DNA of 64,000 nucleotides from Gilvimarinus gilvus (lineage in GTDB: Bacteria; Pseudomonadota; Gammaproteobacteria; Pseudomonadales; Cellvibrionaceae): the NCBI RefSeq assembly GCF_030518155.1, contig NZ_JAULRU010000220.1:62001-126000 (forward strand), given 5' to 3'. Both the position numbers and the translations under genes were made by a program. How positions within the stretch are numbered: position 1 is the stretch's first letter; each line of letters opens with the position of its first letter. Of the stretch, positions 13,346-46,543 are shown one piece after another. The notes below the pieces were generated by a model, which had not been told where the DNA came from, searched no databases, and saw only the letters and a list, made by a program, of their open reading frames with translations.

Positions 13346-13963
13346 GTGAGTAGTCTCAATAAACAAAGCGCGTTCATGTTTGGCGACAGTGATTTCCCCA
13401 CCATAGAACTTTCCAGTGCCAGAGTCCGGCTCAGGCAATGGCAGGCCTGCGACTTGCCGGCCTTTGCCGAACTTAACCGCGACCCTGACGTCATGGCCTA
13501 CTTCCCGTCAACCTTGACTCAAACACAAAGCGACGAGCTGGCCAGCCGCATGCAACGGGGCATTGCCAAACGTGGTTGGGGTTTTTGGGCCGCCGAGCTG
13601 AAAACTACCGGCGAGTTAATTGGTTTTGTTGGCCTCAACAGCCCGAGCGCAGATTTGCCCTTTAGCCCCTGCATTGAAATAGGCTGGCGTTTAGCGCGCC
13701 CGTACTGGCGCCAAGGCCTTGCTACCGAAGCGGCCACCAGCGTACTCGACTTTGGCTTTAACGCCCTCGGCATGCCTGAAATTGTCGCGTTCACTCATGT
13801 GAAAAATTTCCGCTCGCGCGCCGTTATATTACGCCTTGGCATGCGCGACACGGATCAAAACTTCAAGCACCCAGATATTGCGCACGATCACCCCCTCGCC
13901 GAACATGTGCTATTCAAATTAAGGCAAAACGATTGGCAAGCCCATAAAAAAACCGCGCCGTAA
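13346..13963 (+). CDS. GNAT acetyltransferase, RimJ/RimL type
   Basis: 205 residues, starting with GTG at 13346 behind AAGGAAG. The pattern is that of the Acetyltransf_3 group: LSSARVRLRQWQACDLPAFAELNRDPDVMAYFP, GELIGFVGL, IEIGWRLARPYWRQGLATEA (acetyl-CoA pyrophosphate loop) and VKNFRSRAVILRLGM. Members acetylate protein N-termini or small amines. The target is unknown. An intrinsic terminator hairpin overlaps its stop codon. Confidence 0.9.
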   Translation: MSSLNKQSAFMFGDSDFPTIELSSARVRLRQWQACDLPAFAELNRDPDVMAYFPSTLTQTQSDELASRMQRGIAKRGWGFWAAELKTTGELIGFVGLNSPSADLPFSPCIEIGWRLARPYWRQGLATEAATSVLDFGFNALGMPEIVAFTHVKNFRSRAVILRLGMRDTDQNFKHPDIAHDHPLAEHVLFKLRQNDWQAHKKTAP

Positions 13964-13976
13964 GCGCGGTTTTTTT
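13946..13976 (+). terminator. Intrinsic terminator overlapping a stop codon
   Basis: AAAAAACCGCGC pairs with GCGCGGTTTTTT, with loop CGTAA. The TAA stop of the acetyltransferase lies in the loop. It also faces the convergent methyltransferase gene and can serve both. Confidence 0.92.
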
Positions 13977-13998
13977 AAATACAGTAGTTTCGCAATAG

Positions 13999-14823
13999 TT
14001 ACTCGGGTTTCACAAAGCGCAACGTCATACGATCGCTCTCGCCAATGGCCTCATATTTCTCACGATCGGTATCACCCATACGATAGGAGGGTGGCAAGGT
14101 CCAAACACCTTTTTCGTAATCGGCCGTATCTTTCGGGTTGGCGTTGATGTCAGATTCGGCTTCCAGCTCAAAGCCCGCCGCCTGGGCCGCTTTCACTACG
14201 GTACTTTTCTTAATGTAACCGCTTAGGTCCTGCGCTTCATCAGCGTAGCTTTCCGGCAATTGGTGATCCACCACACCCAGCACACCGCCGGGCTTTAGCG
14301 CTGTGTAAAAGGCATCAAAGGCAAGCGCAAGATTCTCTTCACCGCCGCCACGCATGTACCAGTTGTGCACATTGCGGAAGGTCAACACCATATCAGCGCT
14401 GCCCTCGGGGGCGATATCCAGCTTGCTGGGCATTTCGAACAAAGAGATCTTAACTTGGTCGTAAAGCTCGGGGCTCGCCGCGACTTTTTTATCGAAGCCT
14501 GCGCGCGAGTTTTTGTAGTAACCCACACTTGAGTTGGCGTCGAAGTGCGCCGCATAAAAAGTGCCGCTATCGCGCAGGTAAGGCGCCAGAATTTCGGTAT
14601 ACCAACCGCCACCCGGGGCAATTTCAACCACGGTCATGTCGGGCTTAATGCCAAAAAAAGCTAAGGTTTCTGCCGGGTTGCGAAACTCATCGCGGCTGCT
14701 GCTCTCAGCGCGGTGATCGGCGGAGATGACATCTTGCAATTTTTTATCTTCGGCGGCAGCCCAACTGCTGGCCGTTACCGTTAATACCGCCAGAGCGGTT
14801 TTCAATCCAGTAAAGATGGTCAT
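13999..14823 (-). CDS. Predicted exported class I SAM-dependent methyltransferase
   Basis: 274 residues. An N-terminal signal peptide (TIFTGLKTALAVLTVTASSWAAAED) precedes a class I methyltransferase fold. The SAM glycine loop is VVEIAPGGGWYTEILAP, followed by FRNVHNWYMRGG and a LKPGGVLGVVDHQLPE post-motif. Known relatives form a family of predicted periplasmic methyltransferases, odd because SAM is cytosolic. Function is unknown. It is convergent with the acetyltransferase and followed 98 bp upstream by a second, unrelated cytosolic methyltransferase on the same strand. Confidence 0.85.
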   Translation of the reverse strand: MTIFTGLKTALAVLTVTASSWAAAEDKKLQDVISADHRAESSSRDEFRNPAETLAFFGIKPDMTVVEIAPGGGWYTEILAPYLRDSGTFYAAHFDANSSVGYYKNSRAGFDKKVAASPELYDQVKISLFEMPSKLDIAPEGSADMVLTFRNVHNWYMRGGGEENLALAFDAFYTALKPGGVLGVVDHQLPESYADEAQDLSGYIKKSTVVKAAQAAGFELEAESDINANPKDTADYEKGVWTLPPSYRMGDTDREKYEAIGESDRMTLRFVKPE

Positions 14824-16708: not shown

Positions 16709-17099
16709 GGGGGCGATTTGGATTCGACGCCGGTGGCAAAACTCAAGGTGCATGTCGTGAGGGTAGCGAATCACGTAAATCCAAAGCTGCATTTTATTAG
16801 TTGCCAACGACGACAACTACGGTGCCCAATTAGCTGCGTAAGCAGTTGATGAAGCACTTCTAACGGTACGCCGTTAGCGGTCCGTAACAAGGTGCCAGTA
16901 CCGCGTTGCAGACTGTCATACAGAACTGGATAGCTGTGTTGTTATGCCCGTGGCAACACTGCGAAACTTAAAGCGGACTCGCTCCCTACACCCTGCCCGT
17001 TGGGTCGTAGATGAGCTAAATTAATTAACGGAAACTAAGCATGTAGAGCCGCGAGCGGAGTGCCGGCGGACGGGGGTTCAACTCCCCCCGCCTCCACCA
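16709..17099 (+). ncRNA. ssrA: Transfer-messenger RNA (tmRNA)
   Basis: The 5' end GGGGGCG pairs with CGCCTCC at 17089-17095 to form the alanine-tRNA-like acceptor stem, followed by A and an encoded CCA. GATTTGGATTCGACG near the 5' end, CAAGGTGCATGTCG, and the GGTTCAA T-loop with a GC-rich T-stem are standard tmRNA landmarks. The tag frame starts at GCC 16803 and reads ANDDNYGAQLAA before TAA at 16839-16841. The RNA rescues stalled ribosomes with SmpB (not in this window). Its 3' part is duplicated about 1.1 kb downstream. Confidence 0.97.
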
Positions 17100-17167
17100 C
17101 ACAAACAAGGTCACCCAAATGGGTGGCCTTTTTTGTTTGTGGGGCGAGTAGAGAGTGTCCCCCGTAG
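17068..17167 (+). repeat. tmRNA 3'-end direct repeat, copy 1 (left boundary)
   Basis: The T-arm of ssrA (25 bp, 17068-17092) and the terminator with the following sequence (47 bp, 17121-17167) both recur, identical, at 18210-18234 and 18251-18297. The first copy carries the CCA end and ~12 bp absent from the second. Such repeats are the usual trace of integration at a tmRNA/tRNA 3' end. Confidence 0.92.
17107..17134 (+). terminator. Intrinsic terminator of ssrA
   Basis: AAGGTCACCC / GGGTGGCCTT with an AAAT loop and six Ts, embedded in outer ACAAACA...TGTTTGT complementarity. A second copy of the hairpin follows the displaced tmRNA tail at 18236-18264. Confidence 0.92.
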
Positions 17168-17539
17168 TGGGGTTGACCGCAAGGGACTGCGGAAATGCCG
17201 AAAATGCATCGCTACATGGACGTAGTTTATTAGAGCAACGCAGGAGCAGTTGCCGATGGAGCAATTTTCGGTCACAAAATGCCGGGCAGATATTTGCTCC
17301 TGCAATATCTGCATTTCCACCATCCCTGGTGGTCAAGCATTTTGCACAGCCGACCAGGCTGCTCGAAGGGGCAAGGTGAATGGCGTGAAGCGGCAGAGAA
17401 GGCGGCCTGGGCTGGGCGCACACGGAGGTGCGCCATGCACTCCCCCGCAGCCTTTTTTGTTTGTGGTGCGAGTAGAACCTGCCCCGCCTTACCGGTTAGG
17501 CCCGAAACAGCAGAACATCGGCAATCCAGACCACGCTAA
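17168..17539. other. Non-coding stretch between tmRNA and hepT
   Basis: No supported gene. It includes a third, partial copy of the tmRNA terminator tail near 17450-17480 (CCTTTTTTGTTTGTGG and GCGAGTAGA shared), suggesting an older or nested insertion. Reading frames here are short and without ribosome sites. Confidence 0.6.
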
Positions 17540-17881
17540 TCAGTCGATATCAGCCAAACTGGAAAGCTTTTCGATCAACGGTGGCAACTCGTCTTGCACA
17601 ATACTCCAAACAGTATCGTCATCAATGCCAAGATAACCATGAATTAAACGATTACGGGTCGCAATGATCATGCGCCAAGGAATATCTCGGTGAGCGGCGC
17701 GAACATCATCAGGTATATGGGTAGCAGCTTCACCGATAAGCTCAATGTTGCGTAAAGTCGCATCGTAAATCATAGCGCTTTGTATAAACTGTGACTGATC
17801 CAAACCATCGATGTACTGCAATGCTTTGTCAGCAAACCCGATCATATCGGTAATGTAAAAGCCCCATTCACGTTCAGACAT
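17540..17881 (-). CDS. hepT: HepT-like HEPN RNase toxin
   Basis: 113 residues from the ATG at 17881, which overlaps the mntA stop by 8 nt. The HEPN (DUF86) catalytic motif RNRLIHGY gives R76-x4-H81-x-Y83, the Rx4HxY form seen in HepT toxins. In studied systems this RNase is neutralised when MntA modifies the motif tyrosine with AMP. The pair lies between two copies of the tmRNA 3' end and points towards ssrA. An upstream in-frame start at 17902 would lie inside mntA. Confidence 0.92.
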   Translation of the reverse strand: MSEREWGFYITDMIGFADKALQYIDGLDQSQFIQSAMIYDATLRNIELIGEAATHIPDDVRAAHRDIPWRMIIATRNRLIHGYLGIDDDTVWSIVQDELPPLIEKLSSLADID

Positions 17882-18164
17882 GAATACGCTCTTGCTCAAC
17901 ATAGGTCAGCAGCTCTGCGCGCAAGGCCTTTTGAGTGACAAGATCTACCGAGCAGCCGAGTAAATCTTCCAAATAGAATTGCACGCCAAAATAGCGTTTG
18001 GCGGTCGCGGGCCCATTAAAGTGGACCAAAATATCTACATCGCTGTTTTCGTGAGTGTCATCACGGGCAGTAGACCCGAATAAATAGAGTTCGCTAACAC
18101 CAAATTTGCTTTGCAACTCAGCTTTACACGATGTAAGCAATTTCAAGGCTTTTTCACGGTTCAT
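17874..18164 (-). CDS. mntA: MntA-like minimal nucleotidyltransferase antitoxin
   Basis: 96 residues. The polymerase-beta nucleotidyltransferase motif GSTARDDTHENSDVD places Gly30-Ser31 and the metal-binding Asp42-x-Asp44. This is the size and motif of MntA proteins that AMPylate and silence HepT. Translation is probably coupled to hepT through the 8-nt overlap. No clear promoter is visible in the short gap to the displaced tmRNA tail at 18210. Confidence 0.92.
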   Translation of the reverse strand: MNREKALKLLTSCKAELQSKFGVSELYLFGSTARDDTHENSDVDILVHFNGPATAKRYFGVQFYLEDLLGCSVDLVTQKALRAELLTYVEQERIHV

Positions 18165-18209
18165 AGCGTAATTTCGATTACAGTCGTTAGCTCTATAGTA
18201 TTTTGAATA

Positions 18210-18297
18210 GGACGGGGGTTCAACTCCCCCCGCCCAAGGTCACCCCCACTGGGTGGCCTTTTTTGTTTGTGGGGCGAGTAGAGAGTGTCCCCCGTAG
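18210..18297 (+). repeat. tmRNA 3'-end direct repeat, copy 2 (displaced tail)
   Basis: 25 bp identical to the ssrA T-arm, then a variant terminator hairpin and a 47-bp identical stretch. It lacks the discriminator and CCA, so it is not a functional tmRNA end. With copy 1 it encloses the mntA-hepT module (repeat-to-repeat distance about 1.14 kb). Confidence 0.92.
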
Positions 18298-18562
18298 GGT
18301 GGTTGACGTGCATGGACGCACTAAGACCCAAAGCACTCGCACGCTCGCGGGCCAGCTTTGTCGCGGGCGCAGGGTGAGGCAAGTGTGTAAAATGCGCCGC
18401 CGAACGACCACGAGCTACGCTAGTGGGCCGGCCCCGAAGGACGCAGGAACGATCACAAATCTGACCGGATCAGATTTGCACACCACATTCCAAACTGGAT
18501 CTAAACCGCAATACCGATTATCGTATGCGCTTGTTTAAAACCCATAGAAAAGAGACACGATT
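18298..18562. other. Intergenic region with perfect inverted repeat
   Basis: Contains CAAATCTGA / TCAGATTTG (18456-18464 and 18470-18478, 5-nt spacer) about 85 bp before the parvulin start, a candidate operator or hairpin. No gene is supported. Confidence 0.5.
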
Positions 18563-18844
18563 ATGCCTCAAGCCGCCGCACGTCACATTCTGGTCGACAG
18601 CGAAGCCACCTGTAACGAACTGAAAGCGAAAATTGAAGCCGGTGAAGATTTCGCCAAATTAGCGCAAGATCATTCCAGCTGCCCTTCGGGCCGCAACGGC
18701 GGTGATCTGGGCACCTTCGGCCCCGGCCAAATGGTTGCCGAGTTCGACAAAGTCGTATTCAGCGCACCGGTCAACGAAGTTCAGGGCCCGGTTAAAACCC
18801 AGTTTGGTTATCACCTGCTGGAAGTCACCGAGCGTCAGGACTAA
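18563..18844 (+). CDS. ppiC: Parvulin-type peptidyl-prolyl isomerase (PpiC-like)
   Basis: 93 residues, the length of the free-standing cytosolic parvulins. It reads ARHILVDSEATCNELKAKIEAGEDFAKLAQDHSSCPSGRNGGDLGTFGPGQMVAEFDKVVFSAPVNEVQGPVKTQFGYHLLEV (quoted here only in part as family landmarks: ARHILV, SSCPSG, GDLGTFGPGQM, FGYHLLEV). The domain fills the protein and there is no signal peptide. It catalyses cis-trans isomerisation of peptidyl-proline bonds. AAAGAGA lies about 8 nt before the ATG. Single gene. Confidence 0.95.
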   Translation: MPQAAARHILVDSEATCNELKAKIEAGEDFAKLAQDHSSCPSGRNGGDLGTFGPGQMVAEFDKVVFSAPVNEVQGPVKTQFGYHLLEVTERQD

Positions 18845-18859
18845 CAGGAACTAAAAACA

Positions 18860-18892
18860 CCACGCCCGTTTCGCTACCCGAACTGGGCGTGG
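18860..18892 (+). terminator. Stem-loop after ppiC
   Basis: CCACGCCC pairs with GGGCGTGG across a 17-nt loop, 15 bp after the stop codon. No T-tract follows, so terminator function is only likely. Confidence 0.4.
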
Positions 18893-19106
18893 GGCAATTC
18901 GAGATCAATCGTACAATTGCCGCAATTACAGCGTACCTCAGGGGTACAAGAGAAAAATTACGCGAACTACTTTAAACCTTTCGCGATACCCTTCCGATAA
19001 CGGCATGGCGGCATAAAGGCAAATAATGCACGCCGCCCAACTGCGCACCTAACGATTGATGAGTCCCCGCTGCACTGACCACTCTAGCGATTGTCCACCA
19101 TGGGCG

Positions 19107-19961
19107 TTAGCGATAAGACTCTGGCGCCTTAATATGCTGGGCAAACTCTTCGGAATCGTGCTGTATCCACAATTGGGCATTGGTTTGTGCCAAAACCTCG
19201 TCGATAAATGCAAAAGATTGAATGGTAGTGGCTTTATCGTTCCACACAGGAATTCCATAGTGCTCTCTGTTCAGTGCAAAGTGATATAAATCACCCGACA
19301 AAACCACCGGCCCCGTCTCCGCCAAATCGATGTACAGGGACTGGTGACCTTGGGTGTGCCCTGGCGTCGAGAGAATGACAACCGAACCATCACCAAAGAC
19401 ATCAACATGGCCCTCAACCGGAGTGACTTTGTCTGCCGGGCGCTGATGATAATGATCGGGATGGTAACCGTAGGCGCTGGCCTGGTCGGAGTAAGCCATT
19501 GCTTTTTCCCTGCCCTGCATCAACCACTGCGCCTGCGAAAACATCGAACTGTTACCGGTGTGATCACGGTGCAAATGGGAAAACACCAGATAATCAACTG
19601 ACTCCGGCGGTATGTTTAATTCTTGCAGTTGCGCGGCTAGCGGCTTCTCGACCCAGAAACGAAAGGCACCATCCATTACCTCAATACCCTCGGGCAGCTC
19701 CGCCAAGGCATCATCAAGGCCTGTGTCCCACAATAACGTTGCCTCGGGATGGCGCACCAAAAAGCAAGGGCTCACCATTTGCAGTGGCTCGTCGTCCTGC
19801 AATAAAGGGTTAAAAAGCGACGGCTTCCGAGCTTCGAGGTGACCACAATCCAATACATAAAGGGTGATCGGTACCTCGCCTGAGGTGGACAGGCGCGGCA
19901 GCTCAGCAGCCACCGACACCTTGACCATCAATAATATGAAAAATGAGCTCAATAATCGCAT
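19107..19961 (-). CDS. Exported metallo-beta-lactamase-fold hydrolase, AHL-lactonase-like
   Basis: 284 residues with a signal peptide (first ~19, ending SVAAE). The zinc motif SHLHRDHTGN (HxHxDH), a later STPGHTQGHQ and SGDLYHF give the full metal site of the MBL superfamily. The overall arrangement (LYVLDCGHLE at the start of the mature part) resembles N-acyl-homoserine lactonases. The substrate is unproven. AGGAG sits 7 nt before the ATG. It is divergent from a LysR regulator with only 73 bp between, so that regulator probably controls it. Confidence 0.88.
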   Translation of the reverse strand: MRLLSSFFILLMVKVSVAAELPRLSTSGEVPITLYVLDCGHLEARKPSLFNPLLQDDEPLQMVSPCFLVRHPEATLLWDTGLDDALAELPEGIEVMDGAFRFWVEKPLAAQLQELNIPPESVDYLVFSHLHRDHTGNSSMFSQAQWLMQGREKAMAYSDQASAYGYHPDHYHQRPADKVTPVEGHVDVFGDGSVVILSTPGHTQGHQSLYIDLAETGPVVLSGDLYHFALNREHYGIPVWNDKATTIQSFAFIDEVLAQTNAQLWIQHDSEEFAQHIKAPESYR

Positions 19962-20034
19962 GCTTATCTCCTGTGATTTATAAAGGTAAACATGCTAACG
20001 TTTCATTTACAGGATAATAATAGGCATATTTGCA

Positions 20035-20952
20035 ATGGATCATCCCACCAATGAACATAAAGGCCATCACCTGGACGACACGCTCATCGCCATTGAGGTT
20101 CTGCGACGGGGCAGCTTCGCCGCCGCAGCCAAGCGTCTGAATATGCCTACCAGCACAGTAAGCCGCCGGATAACCAACCTAGAGGCCGCGCTGGGTGTCA
20201 GATTGCTCGACCGGACATCTCGCAAAGTCCGGCATACTGAGCAAGGTAAACTACTATTGAGCTTATGCGAAAACGCAATCGACGAGATTAGTGCCAATCT
20301 CAACACCGTGGTGCGCTCAAAACACACCTTGAGCGGCCCCATCCGAATTACGGCCCCAGTACTGTTAGGGAACGAACTTTTCTCAGGCTGGTTCAGTGAA
20401 TTTATGCGGGAATACCCTGACGTCACGCTGGATGTCTTGCTCAGCAACCGTAATGAAGATTTACTGACCAAAGACATCGATCTTGCCATACGCCTCGGGC
20501 CGCTACCGGATTCCGGTTTTATCGGTCAACGGCTGTTTACCACCCACTCCGTACTCTGCGCGTCCCCGCACCTGTGGGACGCGCAACGGCAAGTAACCCT
20601 CACCCAACTGCAGGAACTACCTTTCTTACTGATGAACTCCCAGCGCGACGGCATTATGTTCGAGACCGAGCGCTCAGGGGTTAGCAATTTCCGCCCGAGT
20701 AAAATTGCTCTCGTATCCAATGACCTCGCTCTAATACGCGAAGCGACGCTTGCAGGCTCCGGCGTGGCCTGTCTGCCTAAAGAAGTTATCGCCTCAGCGT
20801 TGCAACAGGGAACACTGATTAACATCGCCCCCTATGCCAAAATCAATACACCGCGACACATTTATGCATTCTATCCAAGCCGACGTTATATGCCGGAAAA
20901 AGTGCAAAGGTTTCTCGAATTCATTAGCAAAAAATGCGAACAGTACAGCTAG
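20035..20952 (+). CDS. LysR-family transcriptional regulator
   Basis: 305 residues. The N-terminal helix-turn-helix (RRGSFAAAAKRLNMPTSTVSRRITNLEAALGVRLLDRTSRKV) is followed by a substrate-binding domain. The closest style is the DsdC/AaeR-like one-domain group with SGPIRITAPVLLG. It is divergent from the MBL-fold gene at 19107, a typical LysR-target arrangement. Its TAG stop falls in the CTAGCA start of a dispersed repeat. Confidence 0.92.
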   Translation: MDHPTNEHKGHHLDDTLIAIEVLRRGSFAAAAKRLNMPTSTVSRRITNLEAALGVRLLDRTSRKVRHTEQGKLLLSLCENAIDEISANLNTVVRSKHTLSGPIRITAPVLLGNELFSGWFSEFMREYPDVTLDVLLSNRNEDLLTKDIDLAIRLGPLPDSGFIGQRLFTTHSVLCASPHLWDAQRQVTLTQLQELPFLLMNSQRDGIMFETERSGVSNFRPSKIALVSNDLALIREATLAGSGVACLPKEVIASALQQGTLINIAPYAKINTPRHIYAFYPSRRYMPEKVQRFLEFISKKCEQYS

Positions 20953-20985
20953 CAAGGCTGTAGAAAACCCCTTGCATGCTCAGCG
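20949..20985 (+). repeat. Dispersed CTAGCAAGGCTGTTGAAAA-type repeat, copy 1
   Basis: Begins at the LysR stop codon (CTAGCAAGGCTGTAGAAAA) and continues CCCCTTGCATGCTCAGCG. Related copies are at 45162-45199, 57864-57896 and, inverted, 58094-58131. Confidence 0.8.
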
Positions 20986-21254
20986 TGGCCTGAGTGGGTG
21001 AAAAGGACACCCGCGGCTACGTTGGCTAACGAACGTGCCTTTTTAATCACTCAACACCAAGAAAATGACACCTTGAAGCTTCAACAAGCGTGTTGAATTG
21101 AATAAAGTATACTGACTACAAAGCCCACTACGCGCGATAAGCCGTGACTGCCACTTTCTTGGATAATCCAAGCAATTGCATACGGGCTTCTAAGTCGTGC
21201 AATCAACGGCGCGTTCGGTGCGTCTTACGGAAATAACAACGGTAGGGAAAGGCC
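20986..21254. other. Intergenic region upstream of the DUF418 gene
   Basis: Holds the second dispersed repeat (21078-21115) and the presumed DUF418 promoter. No gene seen. Confidence 0.5.
21078..21115 (+). repeat. Dispersed TTCAACAAGC-type repeat, copy A
   Basis: About 38 bp, sharing TTCAACAAGC, GTTGAA, TGAAT and AAGTA with 27624-27661 (roughly 80% identical by eye). Looser relatives ending AAGTAAACTGTCCCC and AAGTAGACCGTCCCC occur near 40640 and 26030. Confidence 0.65.
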
Positions 21255-22481
21255 ATGTATACCCAAAATAATACCTCCCGCATTCATGCAGTCGATGCTC
21301 TGCGCGGCTTTGCCTTAGCCGGCATCACCATAGCGCACATGCTCGAGCAGTTTATCGCCGCCCCTCGCCCCCAGGGTGATGCCTGGGGCGTAGCGCCCAC
21401 ATTACTGGATCAAGCAATACAGGCCGTGGGCTTTTTGTTGATCAGCGGCAAGTTCTTTTCCATCTTCTCGCTGCTGTTTGGTATCAGCTTCGCCATTATG
21501 ATGGCCAATGCCGAAAAGCGCGGCCAGGCCTTTAGCGGCCGTTTTCTCTGGCGGTTAATTCTGCTGTTTGCCATTGGGCTGGTGCATACGATGTTTTATC
21601 GCGGCGACATTCTCACGGTTTATACCGTGATTGGGCTCAGCCTGCCGCTGTTTTACCGTTTGCCGGATAAGGTGCTCTGGGTTATTGCCCTGGTTTTGTT
21701 TGCGGGGTTTGGTCGCGCGGTCTTCTTCCTTATTACCGGCTCGGACACGCTCTTACCCTTTGCCTGGACGCCTGAATCGCCCGTGCTGGCCGAATATATC
21801 CAGACGATTAAAAACGGCTCTTTGCTGGACGTGTTCGCCCTCAACCTAACACAGGGGCTGGCCACCAAATACGACTATCAGGTCGCTGTGGGTGGTCGCG
21901 GCTACTTAACGCTGGCCTATTTCCTGGTCGGTATTTGGCTGGTACGCAGCGGTATCGTAAGTGACATTGCCAACCGCATGGCCGATGTTAAAAAAAGCTT
22001 CTTTTACTCCCTAGGCGCCGCGCTGGTGTTCCTGCTGCTTACCATTGGCAGCTTCGTGACCTTGCCGCAACCACTGGATATGACTAGCTGGCATTTCGTG
22101 CTGGGTATGACCGCTTACGACCTACTGGGCATAGCGCTTACCGTTACCCTGATATGTGCCTTTTTGTGGCTCTACCTGAAAAAGCCCGACGGTAAACTGA
22201 ACGCCCTCGCGCCCTATGGCCGCCTGGCGTTAAGCAATTATTTGCTGCAAACCTTAATAGGCACGTTTATTTTCTTCGGTTGGGGCCTGGGCCTGGTGGG
22301 CAGCCTGCACGAGTGGCAAACCCTACTGATTGCTCTGCTGATAATTTACCTGCAAATTAAAATCAGCGCCTGGTGGCTGTCTCGCTACCGCTATGGCCCG
22401 CTGGAATGGGCATGGCGTTGTGGTACTTATTTTAAAGGAATGCCGTTTAAGGTTGAACGGAGTGCGAGCAGCGGTGAATGA
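21255..22481 (+). CDS. DUF418 / YeiB-like multi-spanning membrane protein
   Basis: 408 residues with about ten hydrophobic segments. The N-terminus (RIHAVDALRGFALAGITIAHM) and the C-terminal DUF418 domain (APYGRLALSNYLLQTLIG...GPLEWAWRCGTY) are diagnostic. The biochemical role of the family is not known; it belongs to the wider acyltransferase-3-like membrane fold. GGGAAAGG precedes the ATG. The last 261 bp recur as tails at 24086-24352 and the last ~108 bp again at 25798-25905, so this gene end has been an insertion point for the two following modules. Confidence 0.92.
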   Translation: MYTQNNTSRIHAVDALRGFALAGITIAHMLEQFIAAPRPQGDAWGVAPTLLDQAIQAVGFLLISGKFFSIFSLLFGISFAIMMANAEKRGQAFSGRFLWRLILLFAIGLVHTMFYRGDILTVYTVIGLSLPLFYRLPDKVLWVIALVLFAGFGRAVFFLITGSDTLLPFAWTPESPVLAEYIQTIKNGSLLDVFALNLTQGLATKYDYQVAVGGRGYLTLAYFLVGIWLVRSGIVSDIANRMADVKKSFFYSLGAALVFLLLTIGSFVTLPQPLDMTSWHFVLGMTAYDLLGIALTVTLICAFLWLYLKKPDGKLNALAPYGRLALSNYLLQTLIGTFIFFGWGLGLVGSLHEWQTLLIALLIIYLQIKISAWWLSRYRYGPLEWAWRCGTYFKGMPFKVERSASSGE

Positions 22482-22680
22482 TCGTTGGCCGTCGAATATC
22501 AAAGCTATAGCGACACCGTCATTGGGCAGGTTCAGGGTAAGTGTTTTGTAAGTGAGCTGAATCCAACCCAAATGTGCTCAAGACCTGGCCCTCATTCTGC
22601 CCCAACCAGTTCGCCCAGCGGGTGGCCTTGTTTGTATTGACGAAAAAGAACGCGCTAATCAGAAACTGTGGTGACAACTT

Positions 22681-23379
22681 TTAGAACCAGGATGCCATTA
22701 CTCTCAACATATCCGTTACAACGGCTGGAGAGTGTCTGTCGTCTATCACTAAACCCGGCAACACATTCAGAAATTCGTCGTTGAATAAACTTGTCGCCTG
22801 AGCGGACAAATACTGCTTTACGTCTTCTGGGGCTGCCTCTAGTTCTCTAATGAGTCCACTGCGGTTTTCCAGCACAAAAACAATGTCTTCCAGATCGTGA
22901 CTGTAGAAATTGCCTTCTCCACGATCTAAAAACGCCTCAAATTTAGTTGCCAGAAAATACACCGGTGACACCACTTGTATCTCTAAATCGTTAGCCACGT
23001 TATGTGGTTGGGTGTGATCAAGCGCTTGCTTATACCATTTATTGGTGAAACCCATTGCTCGCGAATCAGAAGACATAACATCCAGCGTTACCCGAGCACC
23101 GCGACTGTTATATAACCAGCTGCAAATGGGGCCTGAAACATCTTCCACAAACCCTCGTTCGCGCAACGCGGCACTAAAAGCTTGATACTCAAAATAGGTA
23201 GCCAGATCGACGATTACATCCACGTCCTCGGTCTGCCGGACGCCCGAATAGGCCACTTCATCCACCAGCAAAACCGTAGTACACCCGCCCACAAAGACCA
23301 CTCGATGCAGCAAATCGCCCAGCCCTTGCGCTATTAATACCAACTGCCGCCGGTTAAAGTCATACCGGGCCATATTCAT
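22681..23379 (-). CDS. AbiEii-like nucleotidyltransferase (toxin candidate)
   Basis: 232 residues. The N-terminal part has the nucleotidyltransferase pattern FVGGCTTVLL...QTEDVDVIVDL (G-G and D-x-D metal residues), followed by a LATKFEAFLDRG...SHDLEDIVFVL segment typical of the AbiEii/AbiGii nucleotidyltransferase group. In such systems the enzyme is the toxin and a winged-helix protein the antitoxin and repressor. It starts 3 bp after the upstream gene's stop, so the two form an operon. It runs tail-to-tail with the DUF418 gene and lies between two copies of that gene's 3' end. ATG at 23373 is an alternative start. Confidence 0.82.
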   Translation of the reverse strand: MNMARYDFNRRQLVLIAQGLGDLLHRVVFVGGCTTVLLVDEVAYSGVRQTEDVDVIVDLATYFEYQAFSAALRERGFVEDVSGPICSWLYNSRGARVTLDVMSSDSRAMGFTNKWYKQALDHTQPHNVANDLEIQVVSPVYFLATKFEAFLDRGEGNFYSHDLEDIVFVLENRSGLIRELEAAPEDVKQYLSAQATSLFNDEFLNVLPGLVIDDRHSPAVVTDMLRVMASWF

Positions 23380-23382
23380 GCG

Positions 23383-23907
23383 TCATGACTCCCTTCCCGT
23401 TAATAAACGCTTCAAACCCGCACGCGCTATGGCCAACTCCCGCGGTCTACCTAAACGAATAGCATCCACCAGCGCGAGGGCCTTATAAAGTAAAGCGTCT
23501 TGCGAGGCGGCAACGGGAACTCCTTTATAAATAGGCTCAACAATAACACCCTCCTGCATACCGCCTGGCACCGCCCATATGACACCGGGACTGGGTGGAA
23601 CCATTTCGGTTCTTACTAACTCACAGCTCCAGCCCGTGCCCATACCACGGCCGTACCCTTTCTCTTGAACAGCATAAGCATAGCGAACCCCAAAGCTCAG
23701 CCATTCCGTGAGCGCATTCACCTCAGCGTAGTAGCCCCCCTCGCGCGAGACAAGAAGCCTTGCAACGAGTAAGCGCCTGGCACCTTTACTCACCTCACTC
23801 GCACTCATATCCAGTGCAGCGGCCAAGTCGCGCACAGGCAAATGCAGCCCACTGGACTGCAGAGCCCAGTATTTAAGTGCTAAAAGTGTATCTTGAGGTT
23901 TAAGCAT
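23383..23907 (-). CDS. Winged-helix protein, probable antitoxin/repressor of the nucleotidyltransferase
   Basis: 174 residues from the ATG at 23907; an open frame to 24000 would read through the operator. The N-terminal winged helix (LALKYWALQSSGLHLPVRDLAAALDMSASEVSKGARRLLVARLL) is followed by a ~100-residue domain of unknown type. It is the first gene of a two-gene operon with the nucleotidyltransferase. A perfect 12-bp inverted repeat lies 6 bp upstream of its start, which fits autorepression. The functional pairing is inferred from gene order. Confidence 0.78.
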   Translation of the reverse strand: MLKPQDTLLALKYWALQSSGLHLPVRDLAAALDMSASEVSKGARRLLVARLLVSREGGYYAEVNALTEWLSFGVRYAYAVQEKGYGRGMGTGWSCELVRTEMVPPSPGVIWAVPGGMQEGVIVEPIYKGVPVAASQDALLYKALALVDAIRLGRPRELAIARAGLKRLLTGRES

Positions 23908-23913
23908 TACTTT

Positions 23914-23947
23914 AACCTGTTTCCTATTTTGAAACAGGAAACAGGTT
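23914..23947. promoter_or_regulatory. Perfect 12-bp inverted repeat, probable autoregulatory operator
   Basis: AACCTGTTTCCT and AGGAAACAGGTT with a 10-nt spacer that itself holds a further GAAACAG. It covers the space directly before the winged-helix start, where a repressor would block transcription. Confidence 0.8.
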
Positions 23948-24085
23948 ATGCTAAATATGAATATGCTGTCAAGAGCAACTAGCCAGCGGTTTCTAAGCAC
24001 CGGAACCAGATGCTGCCAGTCCCTTCGGCGACAATGGCCAACCTACACTATCGCCCCAAGTACACCCCCGCCTCAGCAACTGCTC

Positions 24086-24352
24086 CGCCTGGCGTTAAGC
24101 AATTATTTGCTGCAAACCTTAATAGGCACGTCTATTTTCTTCGGTTGGGGCCTGGGCCTGGGCCTGGTGGGCAGCCTGCACGAGTGGCAAACCCTACTGA
24201 TTGCTCTGTTAATAATTTACCTGCAAATTAAAATCAGCGCCTGGTGGCTGTCGCGCTACCGCTATGGCCCGCTGGAGTGGGCGTGGCGTTGTGGCACCTA
24301 TTTTAAAGGAATACCGTTTAAGGTTGAACGGAGTGCGGGCAGCGGGAAATGA
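24086..24352 (+). pseudogene. DUF418 gene tail, displaced copy 2
   Basis: 267 bp nearly identical to the last 261 bp of the DUF418 gene, from CGCCTGGCGTTAAGC to the TGA stop, with a 6-bp GGGCCT duplication keeping the frame. Similarity starts abruptly at 24086 and ends within 1-2 bp of the stop. No start or ribosome site of its own, so not a gene. Confidence 0.93.
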
Positions 24353-24731
24353 TTGAACAAGCCATGAGGAAATCCCTGACGGTTAAAAAATAAGCGGAAC
24401 CACTCTAGTCCCTGCCAGGAAGCATCACGGATATTGGCAGCAACTTCGATTTGCGATGAAATAGAAAATATTAATAATATCAAAAGCTTATAAAACCTTG
24501 CTGCCAAACTAACGCTCTATAATGAAATAGGTCGGACATTGCCGATTCGCGCAGGAGTTTTTAGCAATCGAGCCCAATTATCCGCCCATGGCCGTAGTTT
24601 TTACGGCAAACTTGGCACCATACGGTACTGACTGATTTTTTTGATACTCTAAAACCAATAAACCCCAGCTAGAGAGCTGGGGCTTATTAAGAGATTCGGC
24701 AAGTTTTGCGGTATGATTGCGCCTAAAAAGC
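24353..24731. other. Non-coding spacer before the zeta module
   Basis: AT-richer than its neighbours; carries the terminator of the zeta operon and no supported gene. Confidence 0.5.
24657..24688 (-). terminator. Intrinsic terminator of the zeta-toxin operon
   Basis: CCCCAGCT / AGCTGGGG with AGAG loop, extended by AATAA / TTATT, and followed on the minus strand by a TTGGTTTT run. Confidence 0.8.
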
Positions 24732-24917
24732 CTATTCAGGGCTGTTTTGACGCTGCTCAATCTTGGCCTTAGCCTGATCCAAAATCGCCTGTTGGCGAGC
24801 TGTGGCGCGCTTTAGCACCCGGCTATAGACTTTTTTCTTCTCGCGCGAAGACGCATTTCGGAAAAAGTCCGAAAATGACGTCGATTTAAGCGGTTTGTTT
24901 TGGCCAAAAGTAATCAT
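24732..24917 (-). CDS. Small basic protein paired with zeta toxin
   Basis: 61 residues, Lys/Arg-rich and predicted helical (SREKKKVYSRVLKRATARQQAILDQAKAKIEQRQ). It starts 15 bp after the zeta stop and precedes the operon terminator, so it is co-transcribed. I do not recognise a family. Position and size suggest an antitoxin or accessory factor, but classical epsilon antitoxins lie upstream of zeta and are larger, so this is an inference. Confidence 0.6.
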   Translation of the reverse strand: MITFGQNKPLKSTSFSDFFRNASSREKKKVYSRVLKRATARQQAILDQAKAKIEQRQNSPE

Positions 24918-24932
24918 AAGACAGATTATAGC

Positions 24933-25652
24933 TCAACTCGTAAGCAGTTTCTCTAAGTCGGTCGGAGTATATTTTTCAGGCACATGGTTGTCAACAACAT
25001 CGATATTCGCCTCATAGGCTCGACGGCCGTTGTTAACGTCCTTCAACACCAAATCCACGGCAATTTCTTTTCCAAACTCACGCTTCAGGCAATTCACATT
25101 CTCCCGCGCCGCAAAATACTGCTCGATAAAATGCGCCAATAAGATGCGGCGGCCCTCTGCCTGCTCCCGGGCCTGAACAAACGCCCACGCCAAACAAGGG
25201 TCTTGGTAGACATAGAGAATATGCACTGCCCGCCCCTTGCCGAGCGAACGCCTGATATTCACCCGGGCTTTGTCCAAATTCGACAAGGTGCCATCGAGAA
25301 GGAAACTTTGCTTTTGTTTGAGCGCCAAATCATGAGTTTTTTCTACTAAAACCGACACGCCCTTTTGAAACAAATAGCTATTATTGCCATCGTACTGTGC
25401 AAACTCGCGGCGCAGCTCGTCCGGGTCGATGCGTATTACTTGATTTTCACCCTGCGCCAAATCGTCTAAAAGCTCTAACGACACCTCGGTTTTACCCGCC
25501 CCTGGAGAGCCGGCCATAAACACCGATACCGGCTCCTCCTCCGAAGGATAAACCGCCTTGTCTGTTAAGCGCTTGGCAATCGGCTTTTTGTGGGCTTTTG
25601 CAAACGCAAGCGCCGCCGTTTCTATTGCCACCTCTTCCTTAGACAAATTCAT
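24933..25652 (-). CDS. Zeta-toxin family kinase
   Basis: 239 residues. Walker A is MAGSPGAGKTE (Lys54-Thr55), followed by IRIDPDELRREF, and LLDGTLSN, the order found in zeta toxins, which phosphorylate UDP-N-acetylglucosamine-type peptidoglycan precursors. A 45-residue helical N-terminal extension (NLSKEEVAIETAALAFAKAHKKPIAKR...) precedes the kinase core; some chromosomal zeta proteins use such an extension for self-inhibition. No epsilon gene lies upstream. The module sits between DUF418 tails 2 and 3 and is tail-to-tail with them. Confidence 0.88.
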   Translation of the reverse strand: MNLSKEEVAIETAALAFAKAHKKPIAKRLTDKAVYPSEEEPVSVFMAGSPGAGKTEVSLELLDDLAQGENQVIRIDPDELRREFAQYDGNNSYLFQKGVSVLVEKTHDLALKQKQSFLLDGTLSNLDKARVNIRRSLGKGRAVHILYVYQDPCLAWAFVQAREQAEGRRILLAHFIEQYFAARENVNCLKREFGKEIAVDLVLKDVNNGRRAYEANIDVVDNHVPEKYTPTDLEKLLTS

Positions 25653-25797
25653 ATAGCGACCTTAGTTTCTATAAATACTGACACCGAACAACCACCACAC
25701 TCGGCCCCCAGCACCCAGCCACCATGTGGCGAACAACCTCATCCTGAAAAATCCGTTCTCTTGTCGCGTCTTGCGCTCTTTGCTTTGTTGGTGTTGC

Positions 25798-25905
25798 TGG
25801 CTGTCTCGCTACCGCTATGGCCCGCTGGAATGGGCGTGGCGTTGTGGCACCTATTTTAAAGGAATGCCGTTTAAGGTTGAACGGCGTGCGGGCAACGGTG
25901 AATGA
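25798..25905 (+). pseudogene. DUF418 gene tail, displaced copy 3
   Basis: 108 bp closely matching the last part of the DUF418 gene, from TGGCTGTCTCGC to the TGA stop, again ending at the stop codon. With copies 1 and 2 it brackets the zeta module. Confidence 0.93.
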
Positions 25906-26128
25906 GCGCTACATATCGGCGATAGAGCGTCACAGGATTAGCAAAATCCCAAATTGAACCAAACTAAAATAGCGCCACCCACTAATTTAAGTTGGAGGTT
26001 AAGTTAAAATAAGCGAATGTGTGGATGCCCTAAACGAAGTTAAGTAGACCGTCCCCTCACAAACTTGACACCAATATATCGGTGTCCTCGGTCTGTGCGA
26101 TCCGTGTCTCATAAATCGTTGCCCATTT

Positions 26129-28207: not shown

Positions 28208-31200
28208 ATGTCAAGTGCATTACAGTTCCTTCCAATTAGCCGTCAACTTACCCAAGATTTTTATGAAGCCGATCAGATTACTGAAGGACTTAGCTCTGTT
28301 GCGGGTGCCACAGGCGGTAGCGGTGAAATTTACACCTTGATCGGATTAAAAGATGAAAGTCCTCGCTTTATAAAGTGTAATCAAGGAATATCAATTACGT
28401 CTGAGTCTTTACCCATAGCACAGAGAGATCTCGAAAGAAAATTATCTCAAGTGGCTACAGCGTCAACGACGAGCGGCACATTGTTTTTGGCACTGGAACA
28501 TTCTCAAAGCGGTGAGTCAGGCCTGTTATGGTGTCTATATGACGGCGAGAAAGACGAGGAGCTTAGATTCAGTGAATACAGTTCGCCTAGAATCACAAAC
28601 ATCTCAGGTGTTAGGGCTCAAACGATATCATCAAGTTCTGATACTGAGTACGTTTTAATATTTATCGAATCCAGTAATGAAGTGTTGATTTTTGATCTTA
28701 ATGGCAAGGATTTTAGTCTCCTTTCATTTGATAGCCGCTCATTAACAGGTTGCCGACTGCTGTCAGCGGTTAAACTTAATGGCGGTCTTTATTTTCTCGG
28801 TCTTAGTGAGAGAGGTTTCTTTTATACAATTGCCACGCTCGATGACAATAGTATTCCAATTAGCGCCAGCCCGCCGATTGATGGGTCAATTAACGGCTAT
28901 AATCCTGGAGTGATGGCGACGGTGATGACTGACACCGCTTCGCCCTGGACGGTATGTGCGGATGAATATGGCTGTTATAAATGGTATCAGCCGGATGATT
29001 CGAATATCTGGACATCAAGAGGCACTTTATTTACGAATACCCCTCTTGATGGTCTCGCTGTTCTTTCAATCGAATCGACAATAGATAATGATGAATTCAC
29101 ACTTTATATTTTAACGGCAGATAAAACATTATGGATTGCAACGGGTAGCGGTGACCCGTCTTCGGGTATTAGTTCCCCACTGCCTCTTATCGATAGTGTT
29201 GAATATGCATCGTCAGTAGTGGGCACAACTAGTATTAATATTTTTTCACCACAGGGTTTGTCGTTATTCGCTAGAAATCAGAAAAATGAGAATTGGGCGG
29301 CAACGCCTATTATAGCGCCTTCTCTTAATATTTATGAACGATACACTTTTCGCACGCAAGTTCGCGTTGCTGACGGTAGCAATATACCGGCAAGTCAAAA
29401 GGCGGTAAATATTTGGAGTGACCACAATGCCGTGGTCGAGGTCAATGGAAAACCATTCTATGTATCATCTGACCCCAGTTCCCCCTGCCAAGTGGAGAGT
29501 GACTCCAGTGGTTTGTTGACGATTGTCAGTGATGCCGATAGCATATATTCCAAGCAATTTTATATAGCAGAAACAGATTCTGGCTTTAATAACGCAACGT
29601 GTATATCACCGGATGGTCCCGTTATTGAAAGGCTGCAAAATCTCCAAGCCAGTGATTTAATGGCGGCTGAGAATCAAGTTACAAATAGCCCTTTGTTTTC
29701 CAACCCCAGCATTCCTATTGATGATGTTGCAAGCGCCATCCAAAGCTTAGCCAACACTCAGATAAAAAACAACCAAACAGCCGCACTTAGGCGTATCTCG
29801 AAGCGATTAAGCCGAGCAAATAACAACTCCTGTGACGGACACTGGAGTTTTGGTGCTCAGCCGGCATCCTTTCGGCAGCCGCGTTCATTATCCGAGTTTG
29901 ACTGGGGGGGTGTTTGGCAATCGATTGTGAGCGGTGTAACTAGCTCTCTGGGCGTCATTATTAATATTTCAGAGGGTGTAATCAACGCGACCGTTAGTTT
30001 TGTGATTAATGAAATCCAATATAACTTTAGTGGCGTTATTGAGTTTTTCGAGGATGCAGTGCAACTTATTCAATCTATTTTTCACTCGATTGGCGCCACT
30101 ATTGATAGTGTCATTAGCTGGTTAGGAACCGTCTTTAACTGGGGCGATATAAAACTAACAGCTCAGGCTATTTCCAACAACATTCAAAGCATTATAGAAC
30201 ACAAACAAACTGACATAGGAGGTTTCATTGAAGCCACAATAACCCAGCTCGATGAAATTCAAGGCACCTTGGATAACAGTTTTTCATCGATGATAACGAA
30301 TGCATTGGGCAGTAGTGACTGGCAATCAGAATGCCAGTCAGCAGCGTCAGAAGGTGACAACCCAGAAAATCTAATGCTCACAAAGCTCACTCAAAACTCC
30401 AACAACATCAATATAACGAATAATAACTTGGTGCAAGGTTCGAGTGACCTAGGAGATATTCTTCAAAATTTTTATGATGATGTATCTGACAACTTTGACG
30501 ATAACTTTAGAAATGAATTTTTGGCCATCTTGGACTCTGATGACGACTTCTTGAGCCAGTTAACGTCGGCTATTGCACTTGTTATTCAGGCATTTTCAGA
30601 CACTGCAATATCGGCAACAAAAACACTGCTACAAGCTATTTACGTCATATTTGATCAAATCATTACGACAATGCAAGACATTTTGAATTATGTATTTGAT
30701 ATACCTTTATTAAGCACACTCTTTAAAAATAAAACTCAGCTAGACTTAACTTTAGGCAATTTAATTTCACTATTACTCGCTATTCCAGCAACAATTATTT
30801 ATAAAGCGGCAACGGGCTTCGCCCCCTTTCAAAACCAGCAAGATATACAGAATTTCGGTAACATCTTAAACAACCCAGACCGCCATAACACAAGGGCTTT
30901 AATTGGTGATAGTCAGTCTTTCAACTACCAAAGTTTTTCAGTGGCCTGCGATTCCGCGACTGTTGGCATTACCGCATTCACAGAAACCATAATCGATGCA
31001 GCCGTTGCTGCGAAGGCGACTAACACGTCGGTATCTTTACTGGGCATCACTGTTAGCTTTCTAGAGATCATCAATTTGGCCATAGGTTCGCCTTATATTG
31101 ATGGCGACCAAAATCAGAATCCAAGTGGCCTTGAACAAACACTTTTTTTTACTGAAATTTTATGCCGTGTCTTTGATGTTGCTTGGACAGCTTATTCCAT

Positions 31201-31516
31201 ATCCGTCAAAAGCAATTCGCCAGCGATACGTTATGCGCCGAGAATTGGGGCTATTATTGCCTATGCTGAAGGATCATTAAAAGCAGGACTAATTGCCGGA
31301 ATTATGACTGACTCACCACCGACTACGTCTAGAGAACGACGTTTATATGCCGCCGCTATTTTAGGAATAGTTTCGGATTTTACAAAGGTGGGACTTATTG
31401 AGAGTGTAACAGAAGAAACAGGGGGTGCTTCTGCAGCCGCGACAATGGCTCTTGATATGTTTACTCTAGCGTCGGCGTCGGCCTTACTCGCATGGTCTGT
31501 TGCTGACTTTGACTAA
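28208..31516 (+). CDS. Large AT-rich orphan protein: beta-propeller-like N-half, helical C-half
   Basis: 1102 residues without signal peptide. Residues ~1-390 contain repeated short beta-strand segments (LYILTADKTLWIATGS, GGLYFLGLSERGFFYTIA, PWTVCADEYGCYKWY) suggesting a tectonin- or propeller-like domain. Residues ~395-480 form a beta module (VRVADGSNIPASQKAVNIWSD). Residues ~560-1100 are long amphipathic and hydrophobic helices (VTSSLGVIINISEGVINAT..., WLGTVFNWGDI), with coiled-coil-like stretches rich in Asn/Gln. No catalytic motif is recognised. The VFNWGDI segment reminds me of large uncharacterised proteins also found in fungi; this is memory, not a search. Low GC and isolation point to horizontal transfer. 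A toxin or adhesin role is possible but unproven. Confidence 0.85.
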   Translation: MSSALQFLPISRQLTQDFYEADQITEGLSSVAGATGGSGEIYTLIGLKDESPRFIKCNQGISITSESLPIAQRDLERKLSQVATASTTSGTLFLALEHSQSGESGLLWCLYDGEKDEELRFSEYSSPRITNISGVRAQTISSSSDTEYVLIFIESSNEVLIFDLNGKDFSLLSFDSRSLTGCRLLSAVKLNGGLYFLGLSERGFFYTIATLDDNSIPISASPPIDGSINGYNPGVMATVMTDTASPWTVCADEYGCYKWYQPDDSNIWTSRGTLFTNTPLDGLAVLSIESTIDNDEFTLYILTADKTLWIATGSGDPSSGISSPLPLIDSVEYASSVVGTTSINIFSPQGLSLFARNQKNENWAATPIIAPSLNIYERYTFRTQVRVADGSNIPASQKAVNIWSDHNAVVEVNGKPFYVSSDPSSPCQVESDSSGLLTIVSDADSIYSKQFYIAETDSGFNNATCISPDGPVIERLQNLQASDLMAAENQVTNSPLFSNPSIPIDDVASAIQSLANTQIKNNQTAALRRISKRLSRANNNSCDGHWSFGAQPASFRQPRSLSEFDWGGVWQSIVSGVTSSLGVIINISEGVINATVSFVINEIQYNFSGVIEFFEDAVQLIQSIFHSIGATIDSVISWLGTVFNWGDIKLTAQAISNNIQSIIEHKQTDIGGFIEATITQLDEIQGTLDNSFSSMITNALGSSDWQSECQSAASEGDNPENLMLTKLTQNSNNINITNNNLVQGSSDLGDILQNFYDDVSDNFDDNFRNEFLAILDSDDDFLSQLTSAIALVIQAFSDTAISATKTLLQAIYVIFDQIITTMQDILNYVFDIPLLSTLFKNKTQLDLTLGNLISLLLAIPATIIYKAATGFAPFQNQQDIQNFGNILNNPDRHNTRALIGDSQSFNYQSFSVACDSATVGITAFTETIIDAAVAAKATNTSVSLLGITVSFLEIINLAIGSPYIDGDQNQNPSGLEQTLFFTEILCRVFDVAWTAYSISVKSNSPAIRYAPRIGAIIAYAEGSLKAGLIAGIMTDSPPTTSRERRLYAAAILGIVSDFTKVGLIESVTEETGGASAAATMALDMFTLASASALLAWSVADFD

Positions 31517-38778: not shown

Positions 38779-38869
38779 CTTTATGACTTATGGAATAATA
38801 CGCTAAGGTGGCGACAACAAATCCACCACTCAAGCTAAGCGGATATTGCACCCTGACACCGGTACCCAC

Positions 38870-39871: not shown

Positions 39872-39892
39872 TTTGGAGCATACCTCGTGCTC

Positions 39893-43974: not shown

Positions 43975-44135
43975 TCACCAATCCGGGCGCAACCCAGCAC
44001 TCAAATGCGAACCCCATACCTCGTATCCCCCGGTAACTTCCGTAAACACCCTCTTTTCCAACACGCTAGCCAATCCCGCGTCGCGGTGGGTTTACTGACT
44101 TTGGCCAGCGACTGGTACTTGTGAGCATTGATGCC
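43975..44135 (-). pseudogene. Fragment of a second fic gene tail
   Basis: Translating the minus strand gives QGINAHKYQSLAKVSKPTATRD, matching QGINARKYQSLAKVSKPTATRD of the fic pseudogene at 39893. After a one-base frameshift it continues LASVLEKRVFTEVTGG to a TGA at 43975-43977. Everything upstream of this tail is absent. Confidence 0.85.
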
Positions 44136-45269: not shown

Positions 45270-46502
45270 TTAACTCTGAACCACCTGCACTTTGCCCTTG
45301 GTGCGTGCAAGCAAACGCTCCTTACGCTGGCCATTGAGTACGGCGCCAATAAACGTAGACCTAACAAAAAGATCGTAGAGCACAAGCGAGACACCAATGG
45401 TAATGCCACTGATCAGTGCTAGCTTGATCCCCCAATGCAAGTCCACTTCGGCAAAGGCTATTTGCAACCAAATAACAATGGGTAAATGCAACAGATACAA
45501 CCAGTAAGACGAGTCGGCAATATAGCGCACGGTTCTGCTCGGGCGATCGAGAAACCGGCGGAACAAACCAATGGTGATCGCTACCAAAGACCACATCATC
45601 AGGGTATAACTGCACTTAAAGGCCAGCTTCAGGTAGAAATAATTCGGGTGACCCGACTGACCTTCATAGCCCGACAAGATAACCGATGCCACTATCGCAA
45701 CGATTGCGAGCACAACTTTGTGCCAACTTAACCGGCTGAACTCGCGCATTAAATCGCTCTGGCGATGCATCAACCAGCCAAACACAAAGAAGCCGCCGTA
45801 AATTAAAAATACCGGCATATGCGGCGTTAATGCTTTATCGGGAGTGTCCATGCCCCACTGCCCCATAAACCACAAGCAACCCGCCGTCGGTAGCGCTAAG
45901 GCAAGCAACGCCAGCGGTGAGCGACAAAGCCAGCGCATCAGGGCATCCGCCGTTTTGGTCAGAACGCTTTGCAGTGGGCTGATGCAGCTGATAAATGCGC
46001 GAAGCAAAAGCAGGCTTGCCGTAACCAGCAACAGGTAATATAAAAACCACAAGTGGGTGCCGGTAAAGGGCGCATTGAAAAAACCAAGCAGCGAGACAAA
46101 ACCTTCGCGCAACGCGGGCAAAATACTGACCTCACCGCGCATACTCTGCATACCCATAACCCAACCGGACACGAGCAAAGGCCTAAGTAAAAACCAACCC
46201 ACCACAAATGGAATGGCGATACGCACTAACCGAGATTTTAAAAACAGTGCGGCGCCCTTTTTGTGATAGGTCATATGGCTAAAGAACCCGGCCACCAGAA
46301 AAAACAGCTCCATACGAAAAGAGTGGCTAATCAGCATAAAGGTGCCGACAATCGGGCTGGTGTGAATATCCATCACTGCCCAGCCAATGAAAATCGGTAA
46401 AAACGATAAACTGGCGTGAAAGACAATGCCGAGTAACAGCGCAAAGGCTCGCACTGCATCGAGATAATCCAATCGACTGTTCACTGGTATGGGAGTATTC
46501 AT
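45270..46502 (-). CDS. Acyltransferase-3 family membrane protein (OpgC-like)
   Basis: 410 residues from the ATG at 46502, with about ten membrane helices. RLDYLDAVRAFALLLGIVFHAS with the conserved His, then FRMELFFLVAGFF and FLKSRLVRIAIPF, and a C-terminal YWLYLLHLPIV mark the acyltransferase-3 family, closest in layout to OpgC/MdoC, which succinylates periplasmic glucans. It transfers an acyl group to a sugar across the inner membrane; the substrate is inferred only. It follows a CIA30-like gene on the same strand. Confidence 0.9.
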   Translation of the reverse strand: MNTPIPVNSRLDYLDAVRAFALLLGIVFHASLSFLPIFIGWAVMDIHTSPIVGTFMLISHSFRMELFFLVAGFFSHMTYHKKGAALFLKSRLVRIAIPFVVGWFLLRPLLVSGWVMGMQSMRGEVSILPALREGFVSLLGFFNAPFTGTHLWFLYYLLLVTASLLLLRAFISCISPLQSVLTKTADALMRWLCRSPLALLALALPTAGCLWFMGQWGMDTPDKALTPHMPVFLIYGGFFVFGWLMHRQSDLMREFSRLSWHKVVLAIVAIVASVILSGYEGQSGHPNYFYLKLAFKCSYTLMMWSLVAITIGLFRRFLDRPSRTVRYIADSSYWLYLLHLPIVIWLQIAFAEVDLHWGIKLALISGITIGVSLVLYDLFVRSTFIGAVLNGQRKERLLARTKGKVQVVQS

Positions 46503-46543
46503 GGTTTTGTTCCGGGCATTGGTGGAGTAAAAGTACATAGTAT

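Follow-up and report, generated by a model that had tools for sequence, protein, structure and literature searches.

Toxin-antitoxin islets bracketed by gene 3' ends in a variable region downstream of tmRNA in Gilvimarinus

Introduction

How does a small toxin-antitoxin (TA) pair come to lie directly behind a gene and leave that gene whole? The question is raised by a 64,000-nucleotide stretch of DNA from a Gilvimarinus species, here called the window, in which a HEPN/MNT pair, an AbiE-like pair and a zeta pair each stand between two copies of a gene 3' end. The first lies behind the gene for tmRNA and the other two behind a gene for a DUF418 membrane protein. On balance, these modules are probably integrase-less islets that work like cis-mobilizable elements (CIMEs), with replacement of the host-gene tail of the kind known from prophage e14 in icd, tandem accretion and retention by addiction. 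The likeness is one of mode of action and not of membership in a class. The genus comparison covered eight Gilvimarinus genomes, the source genome (G000) and seven sisters (G001 to G007), of which G001 is Gilvimarinus algae.

Results

The first islet is a HEPN/MNT pair between two copies of the tmRNA 3' end. Its features are as follows.

16709..17099, + strand: tmRNA (ssrA), host gene of the first islet (ARAGORN; Rfam RF00023, E 9e-78)
17068..17177, + strand: tmRNA 3' end with terminator, copy 1 (repeat with 18210-18307)
17450..17476, + strand: third short piece of the tmRNA terminator (27 bp, 96%)
17540..17902, - strand: HepT-like HEPN toxin (PF01934, E 4e-27)
17874..18164, - strand: MNT antitoxin, adenylyltransferase-like (PF01909, E 3e-18; PADLOC PDC-S09)
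18210..18307, + strand: displaced tmRNA 3' end, from the T arm and minus the last 7 bases, with terminator (repeat with copy 1)

The two tmRNA-end copies consist of the last 32 bases and the terminator and are 84% identical over 111 aligned columns, with a 13-base gap in the displaced copy that covers the last 7 bases of the tmRNA. As in known HEPN/MNT toxin-antitoxin systems, the HepT-like and MNT genes are side by side; both proteins score below the NCBIfam equivalog cut-offs (for MNT, that of NCBIfam MntA).

The second and third islets form a series behind the DUF418 gene. A DNA search of the whole genome found the DUF418 tail at three places only, all in this series, which runs gene, AbiE pair, tail 2, zeta pair, tail 3.

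21255..22481, + strand: DUF418 membrane protein, host gene of islets 2 and 3 (PF04235)
22220..22482, + strand: DUF418 tail, copy 1, the end of the intact gene (repeat)
22681..23379, - strand: AbiEii-like nucleotidyltransferase (PF08843, E 3e-7; PADLOC PDC-M21B, E 5e-57)
23383..24000, - strand: AbiEi-like partner (PADLOC PDC-M21A, E 5e-29; no Pfam match)
24085..24353, + strand: DUF418 tail, copy 2, displaced (93.3% to copy 1 over 269 columns)
24732..24917, - strand: zeta partner of 61 amino acids
24933..25652, - strand: zeta toxin (PF06414, E 1e-42)
25795..25908, + strand: DUF418 tail, copy 3, displaced, the gene's last 114 bases (93.0% to copy 1)

Among the seven congeners, only G. algae has a close homologue of the DUF418 protein (88% amino acid identity). 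AbiEii is above the Pfam cut-off, while its partner is recognized by PADLOC PDC-M21A alone. Both proteins match the PADLOC candidate system PDC-M21, but its component PDC-M21C was not seen in the window module. A third gene that matches PDC-M21C, with a weak match to PP2C phosphatase, is present in a locus from another genome (L198, 4326-6427). An epsilon/zeta system combines the zeta kinase with the epsilon antitoxin. Here the zeta gene is adjoined by one for a basic protein of 61 amino acids, as it is in seven of seven homologous loci (L212 to L218; six by tblastn, and L217 by eye, upstream). This protein has no match in Pfam, NCBIfam, PHROGs or PADLOC and is perhaps the partner of this type of zeta in place of epsilon. 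The segment with zeta (24348-25691) has a 92% identical counterpart in the G006 tmRNA region, where its context is different. The DUF418 stop has 5 bp, AATGA, in common with the beginning of this zeta segment as it occurs in G006. A short piece near zeta (25700-25774) resembles the start of HsdR by eye; similar DNA occurs near zeta in G006.

A preliminary description of this DNA had three separate modules following one rule, each inserted directly behind a gene 3' end, opposite in direction to the gene and with no recombinase. Bracketing by a gene 3' end is indeed common to all three, and open reading frames (ORFs) and Pfam revealed no integrase, other recombinase or transfer gene within them. 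However, both RNA-gene and protein-gene ends are used, the tail lengths differ, and the AbiE-like and zeta modules share DUF418, the host of the remaining module being tmRNA.

All three modules lie within one variable hotspot downstream of tmRNA. The tmRNA is present in all eight Gilvimarinus genomes, and the DNA downstream of it varies among them. The right edge of the hotspot was taken to be an acyltransferase gene, homologues of which were found by tblastn downstream of tmRNA in five of the seven sisters (G001, G002, G004, G005 and G006) and not in the stretches examined of G003 and G007.

45270..46538, - strand: acyltransferase (PF01757; tblastn)

Two sister species, G006 and G003, encode a tyrosine integrase (PF00589 with PF13356) directly downstream of tmRNA; none of the nine PF00589 matches in the source genome is on the window's contig. 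A displaced tmRNA 3' end with terminator is found about 23 kb downstream in G006, about 37 kb downstream in G007 and about 0.16 kb away in G002 and G004. G005 has an extra tmRNA end without terminator, and no displaced end was found in the stretches examined of G001 and G003. Because of the integrases directly behind tmRNA and the displaced tmRNA ends in sisters, the tmRNA site is an integration site of the genus. The tmRNA regions of G001, G003 and G004 contain MNT or relics of it.

Other features of these regions were noted. A HigA-like gene (named by eye) is convergent to MNT or its relics in the hotspots of G001, G003 and G004, at the place where the window has the HEPN/MNT pair; that of G003 is a relic about 19 kb from tmRNA. 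In the G007 hotspot (about 38495-39924) one gene ends next to the displaced tmRNA ends, and these repeats include its final 55 bp; this is perhaps the prophage's own attachment (att) end. The window also encodes a protein of 1102 amino acids without Pfam match (28208-31516).

The same architecture recurs around TA modules in other genomes. Sixty TA loci from 56 genomes were examined, a subset of the matches and mostly the best-scoring ones: 18 AbiE, 7 zeta and 15 HEPN loci at the level of the order (293 genomes searched) and 20 HepT loci at the level of the class (369 genomes searched). A TA gene counted as bracketed when direct repeats at least 40 bp long and at least 75% identical flanked it. 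The controls were 180 centres, three per stretch in 60 stretches of 20 kb taken at random (20 from G000, 20 from G004 and 20 from genomes with TA loci). A direct repeat brackets the TA gene in nine of the 60 loci. In seven of them it was read as an intact gene's 3' end and a displaced copy, an arrangement found at none of the 180 control centres (Fisher p = 5e-5, a value that assumes independent loci, which related genomes and centres from the same stretch are not quite). In the other two, L223 and L319, the repeats were judged by eye to be of a different kind, and these loci were left out. The host genes of the seven are as follows.

L194: tRNA-Asn; the displaced piece is its 3' part
L198: lldD (named by eye)
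L222: ATPase; a PIN gene and a HepT match with a stop are inside the bracket
L231: nadC
L233: maoC-like gene
L316: manC
L331: gene for a 157-amino-acid protein with no Pfam match and the look of a membrane protein

The inserts are 0.76-2.28 kb long and hold little besides the TA pair, and no recombinase was seen in their ORF lists by eye. Together with the cases from the genus, the distinct host genes number ten, and in every one it is the 3' end that is used (two-sided sign test 0.002). Labels for displaced gene starts were also output in L198, L223, L316, L319 and L331; by eye these were judged to be antisense or chance ORFs or, in L316, the MNT start. L316 holds two tandem copies that have the junction of manC tail and MNT start in common (371 bp at 82%), so that the tail behaves as part of the cassette. 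Among 11 genomes searched from the genus of G249, a displaced maoC-like tail was detected only in G249 itself, and the nine relatives compared have the maoC-like gene without a second tail in the stretch examined.

The preliminary description's expectation that such structures recur in other genomes is thus borne out, while convergent placement is not a rule. All three window modules are opposite in direction to the host gene, but overall only five of 11 cassettes are convergent (the three of the window, L233 and L331). Those at G001 Fic2, L194, L198, L222, L231 and L316 are co-directional.

The bracketed structures are not a general insertion mode of this genome, as had been proposed. In 836 kb outside hotspots, displaced 3' tails came from a single internally repeated gene: it gave nine of 13 hits in a 400-kb sample of G000, the other four being short repeats at one gene start. 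A 400-kb sample of G004 gave one hit, a gene start, and the 36.5 kb of the window outside the hotspot gave none. By comparison, 230 kb of hotspots gave 14 displaced-end hits. Five are downstream tails, from DUF418 (two), the tail-2 ORF, G001 Fic2 and the 55-bp gene tail of G007. Four are upstream tails (tail 2, a window Fic fragment and two in a G006 tandem array), and five are gene starts (one at the tmRNA repeat and four in the G006 array).

The window Fic gene (39893-40519) has a 3'-end fragment at 44020-44139, beyond a Reg_prop/GGDEF gene (40853-43882); in this case the copy of the tail is on the 5' side of the intact gene. The G006 array (13639-14769) consists of units of about 408 bp with the motif GTTTCATCTGACCCC, which also occurs in repeats beside the G001 Fic tails and around an AAA_21 pair in G005. 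The repeats with this motif possibly resemble repetitive extragenic palindromes. Neither the G006 array nor the 95-bp repeats around the AAA_21 ATPase pair of G005 are gene tails.

Several displaced tails have diverged from the host gene in the manner of working alleles. Silent changes were compared with amino acid changes between gene tail and displaced copy. DUF418 copies 1 and 2 differ at 12 positions, eight silent and four changing an amino acid (p 0.004), and by a 6-bp insertion; judged from these sequences, they are diverged alleles and not a fresh duplication. In the same hotspot of G. algae, an AbiE pair lies between the 3' end of Fic2 and a displaced Fic tail, and 16 of the 18 tail changes are silent (16:2, p 6e-8). 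The ratio of silent to other changes is 11:8 for nadC (p 0.004), 16:15 for manC (p 0.003, with the expected share set by hand at 0.27) and 10:5 for lldD (p 0.004, with the expected share set at 0.3). This excess of silent changes shows that such tails diverged as working gene ends in separate lineages and were joined later.

Discussion

The arrangement is consistent with integration at gene 3' ends followed by loss or absence of the integrase. A larger integrative element would have entered a gene 3' end by site-specific recombination, bringing its own allele of the gene end, so that the gene stayed whole and the native end was displaced to the far side. The recombination genes would then have been lost, or would never have been carried and would have acted in trans. 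The TA pair may have persisted since its loss is costly. A later element at the same gene end would push the earlier islet outward, giving the series seen behind DUF418, whose joints an integrase would also have made.

The RNA genes fit this account best, because the displaced pieces begin inside the gene, at the T arm of tmRNA in the window and in the 3' part of tRNA-Asn in L194. The att sites of integrases often start inside an RNA gene. By position the window repeats, which contain the 3' end of tmRNA or DUF418, appear att-like. An integrase-bearing element occupies the same site behind tmRNA in G006 and G003.

Several results weigh against integration. DUF418 fits it less well, because the stop lies 262 bp from one joint and 114 bp from the other and because of the AATGA match at the zeta joint; the single fixed crossover of e14 in icd is not seen there. 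The DUF418 ends yielded no integrase, viral contigs and phage records contained no match to the DUF418 tail, and for the G003 element no right end was found. No silent excess is present between DUF418 copies 1 and 3 (3:4) or 2 and 3 (3:5), or in the maoC-like (1:1) and ATPase (1:2) tails. The bracketing test recovers all three window modules and the G001 case, but zeta in G006, MNT in G003 and an AbiE-like pair in G002 came out unbracketed, and in G004 MNT is bracketed by a repeat of intergenic DNA and not by the tmRNA end. Finally, the recurrence was measured against random centres alone.

The alternative that survives best is homologous recombination on one side combined with illegitimate joining on the other. 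DNA from a relative, carrying the gene and the cassette, would recombine within the gene, and its far end would join inside the resident gene, leaving the old tail behind. Such homology-facilitated illegitimate recombination is known in naturally competent bacteria (PMC3240628). For the DUF418 joints it is a real rival, since it would account for diverged allelic tails, two tail lengths at one gene, the AATGA match and the lack of a nearby integrase. As a general explanation it is a less likely possibility. It predicts displaced gene starts as often as displaced ends, whereas in all ten host genes the 3' end is the one used, a bias to which selection for intact promoters could contribute. It also leaves unexplained the RNA-gene pieces that start inside the gene and the shared manC-MNT joint.

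The TA modules might instead be mobile cassettes, addressed by the target-gene tail that they carry and moved by an unidentified or trans-acting recombinase. The compact inserts, the ten unrelated host genes and the manC tail-MNT unit all agree with this, but only seven of 60 TA loci have the pattern, no circle or donor element was seen, and decay to remnants accounts for the same anatomy. We regard it as unlikely. Local tandem duplication of gene end and module followed by decay is highly improbable: the ATPase tail of L222 is 99% identical, downstream DNA included, as such a duplication would leave it, but the silent excess in Fic2, DUF418 copies 1 and 2, nadC, manC and lldD contradicts this origin (a contradiction that does not extend to L222, L233 and L331).

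Integration with replacement of the gene end, the account favored here, has precedents, so the tail logic is not new. In passages of PMC6379469, the e14 element in icd of Escherichia coli is described as supplying the 3' codons of the gene, with the 163-bp native end displaced to the other side. The DUF418 and Fic2 tails likewise point to a host-gene 3' end replaced by the element's allele, with the native end displaced. However, e14 is a prophage, while the inserted DNA here is a TA pair 1-2 kb long, and one gene has two different crossover points. According to passages of PMC5704250, a CIME is an att-flanked remnant without integration genes, and a later element that enters the att site with a gene end produces a tandem. 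The likeness lies in integrase-less remnants flanked by gene ends and in tandem accretion. CIMEs are presented there as decayed integrative and conjugative or integrative and mobilizable elements, whereas these islets hold little but a TA pair and no parent element was seen at DUF418. Integron gene cassettes also include small TA cassettes between repeats, but the repeats here are gene 3' ends.

Recent insertions and deletions of HEPN-MNT pairs between close relatives were noted in 2009, in passages of PMC2701414; the terms "integrase" and "direct repeat" are absent from the main text of that paper. Among the literature matches listed for TA pairs, islets, att sites and displaced gene ends, no title concerns TA pairs bracketed by displaced gene tails, which is weak evidence of novelty. 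The kind of islet is already known, and its TA-only form, 0.8-2.3 kb long and present at ten different gene ends, looks like a new variation.

To our knowledge, the movement of lone TA pairs is mostly unexplained. TA modules are described as exceptionally mobile in passages of PMC2701414, and the signature of gene 3' tail, pair and displaced tail is a trace of their arrival that can be searched for in genomes. It also makes a trans-acting integrase and homologous recombination testable against each other. A broader idea, which we consider doubtful, is that TA pairs form a class of recombinase-free cassettes, with the target gene's 3' end as address label, that are moved by any recombinase present and lodge behind RNA or protein genes. 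If so, the tail would restore the gene, entry would be cheap for the host, and addiction would retain the cassette. Overall, the recurrence of this arrangement around some TA pairs in other bacteria suggests pared-down mobile elements that settle behind genes and leave them intact.

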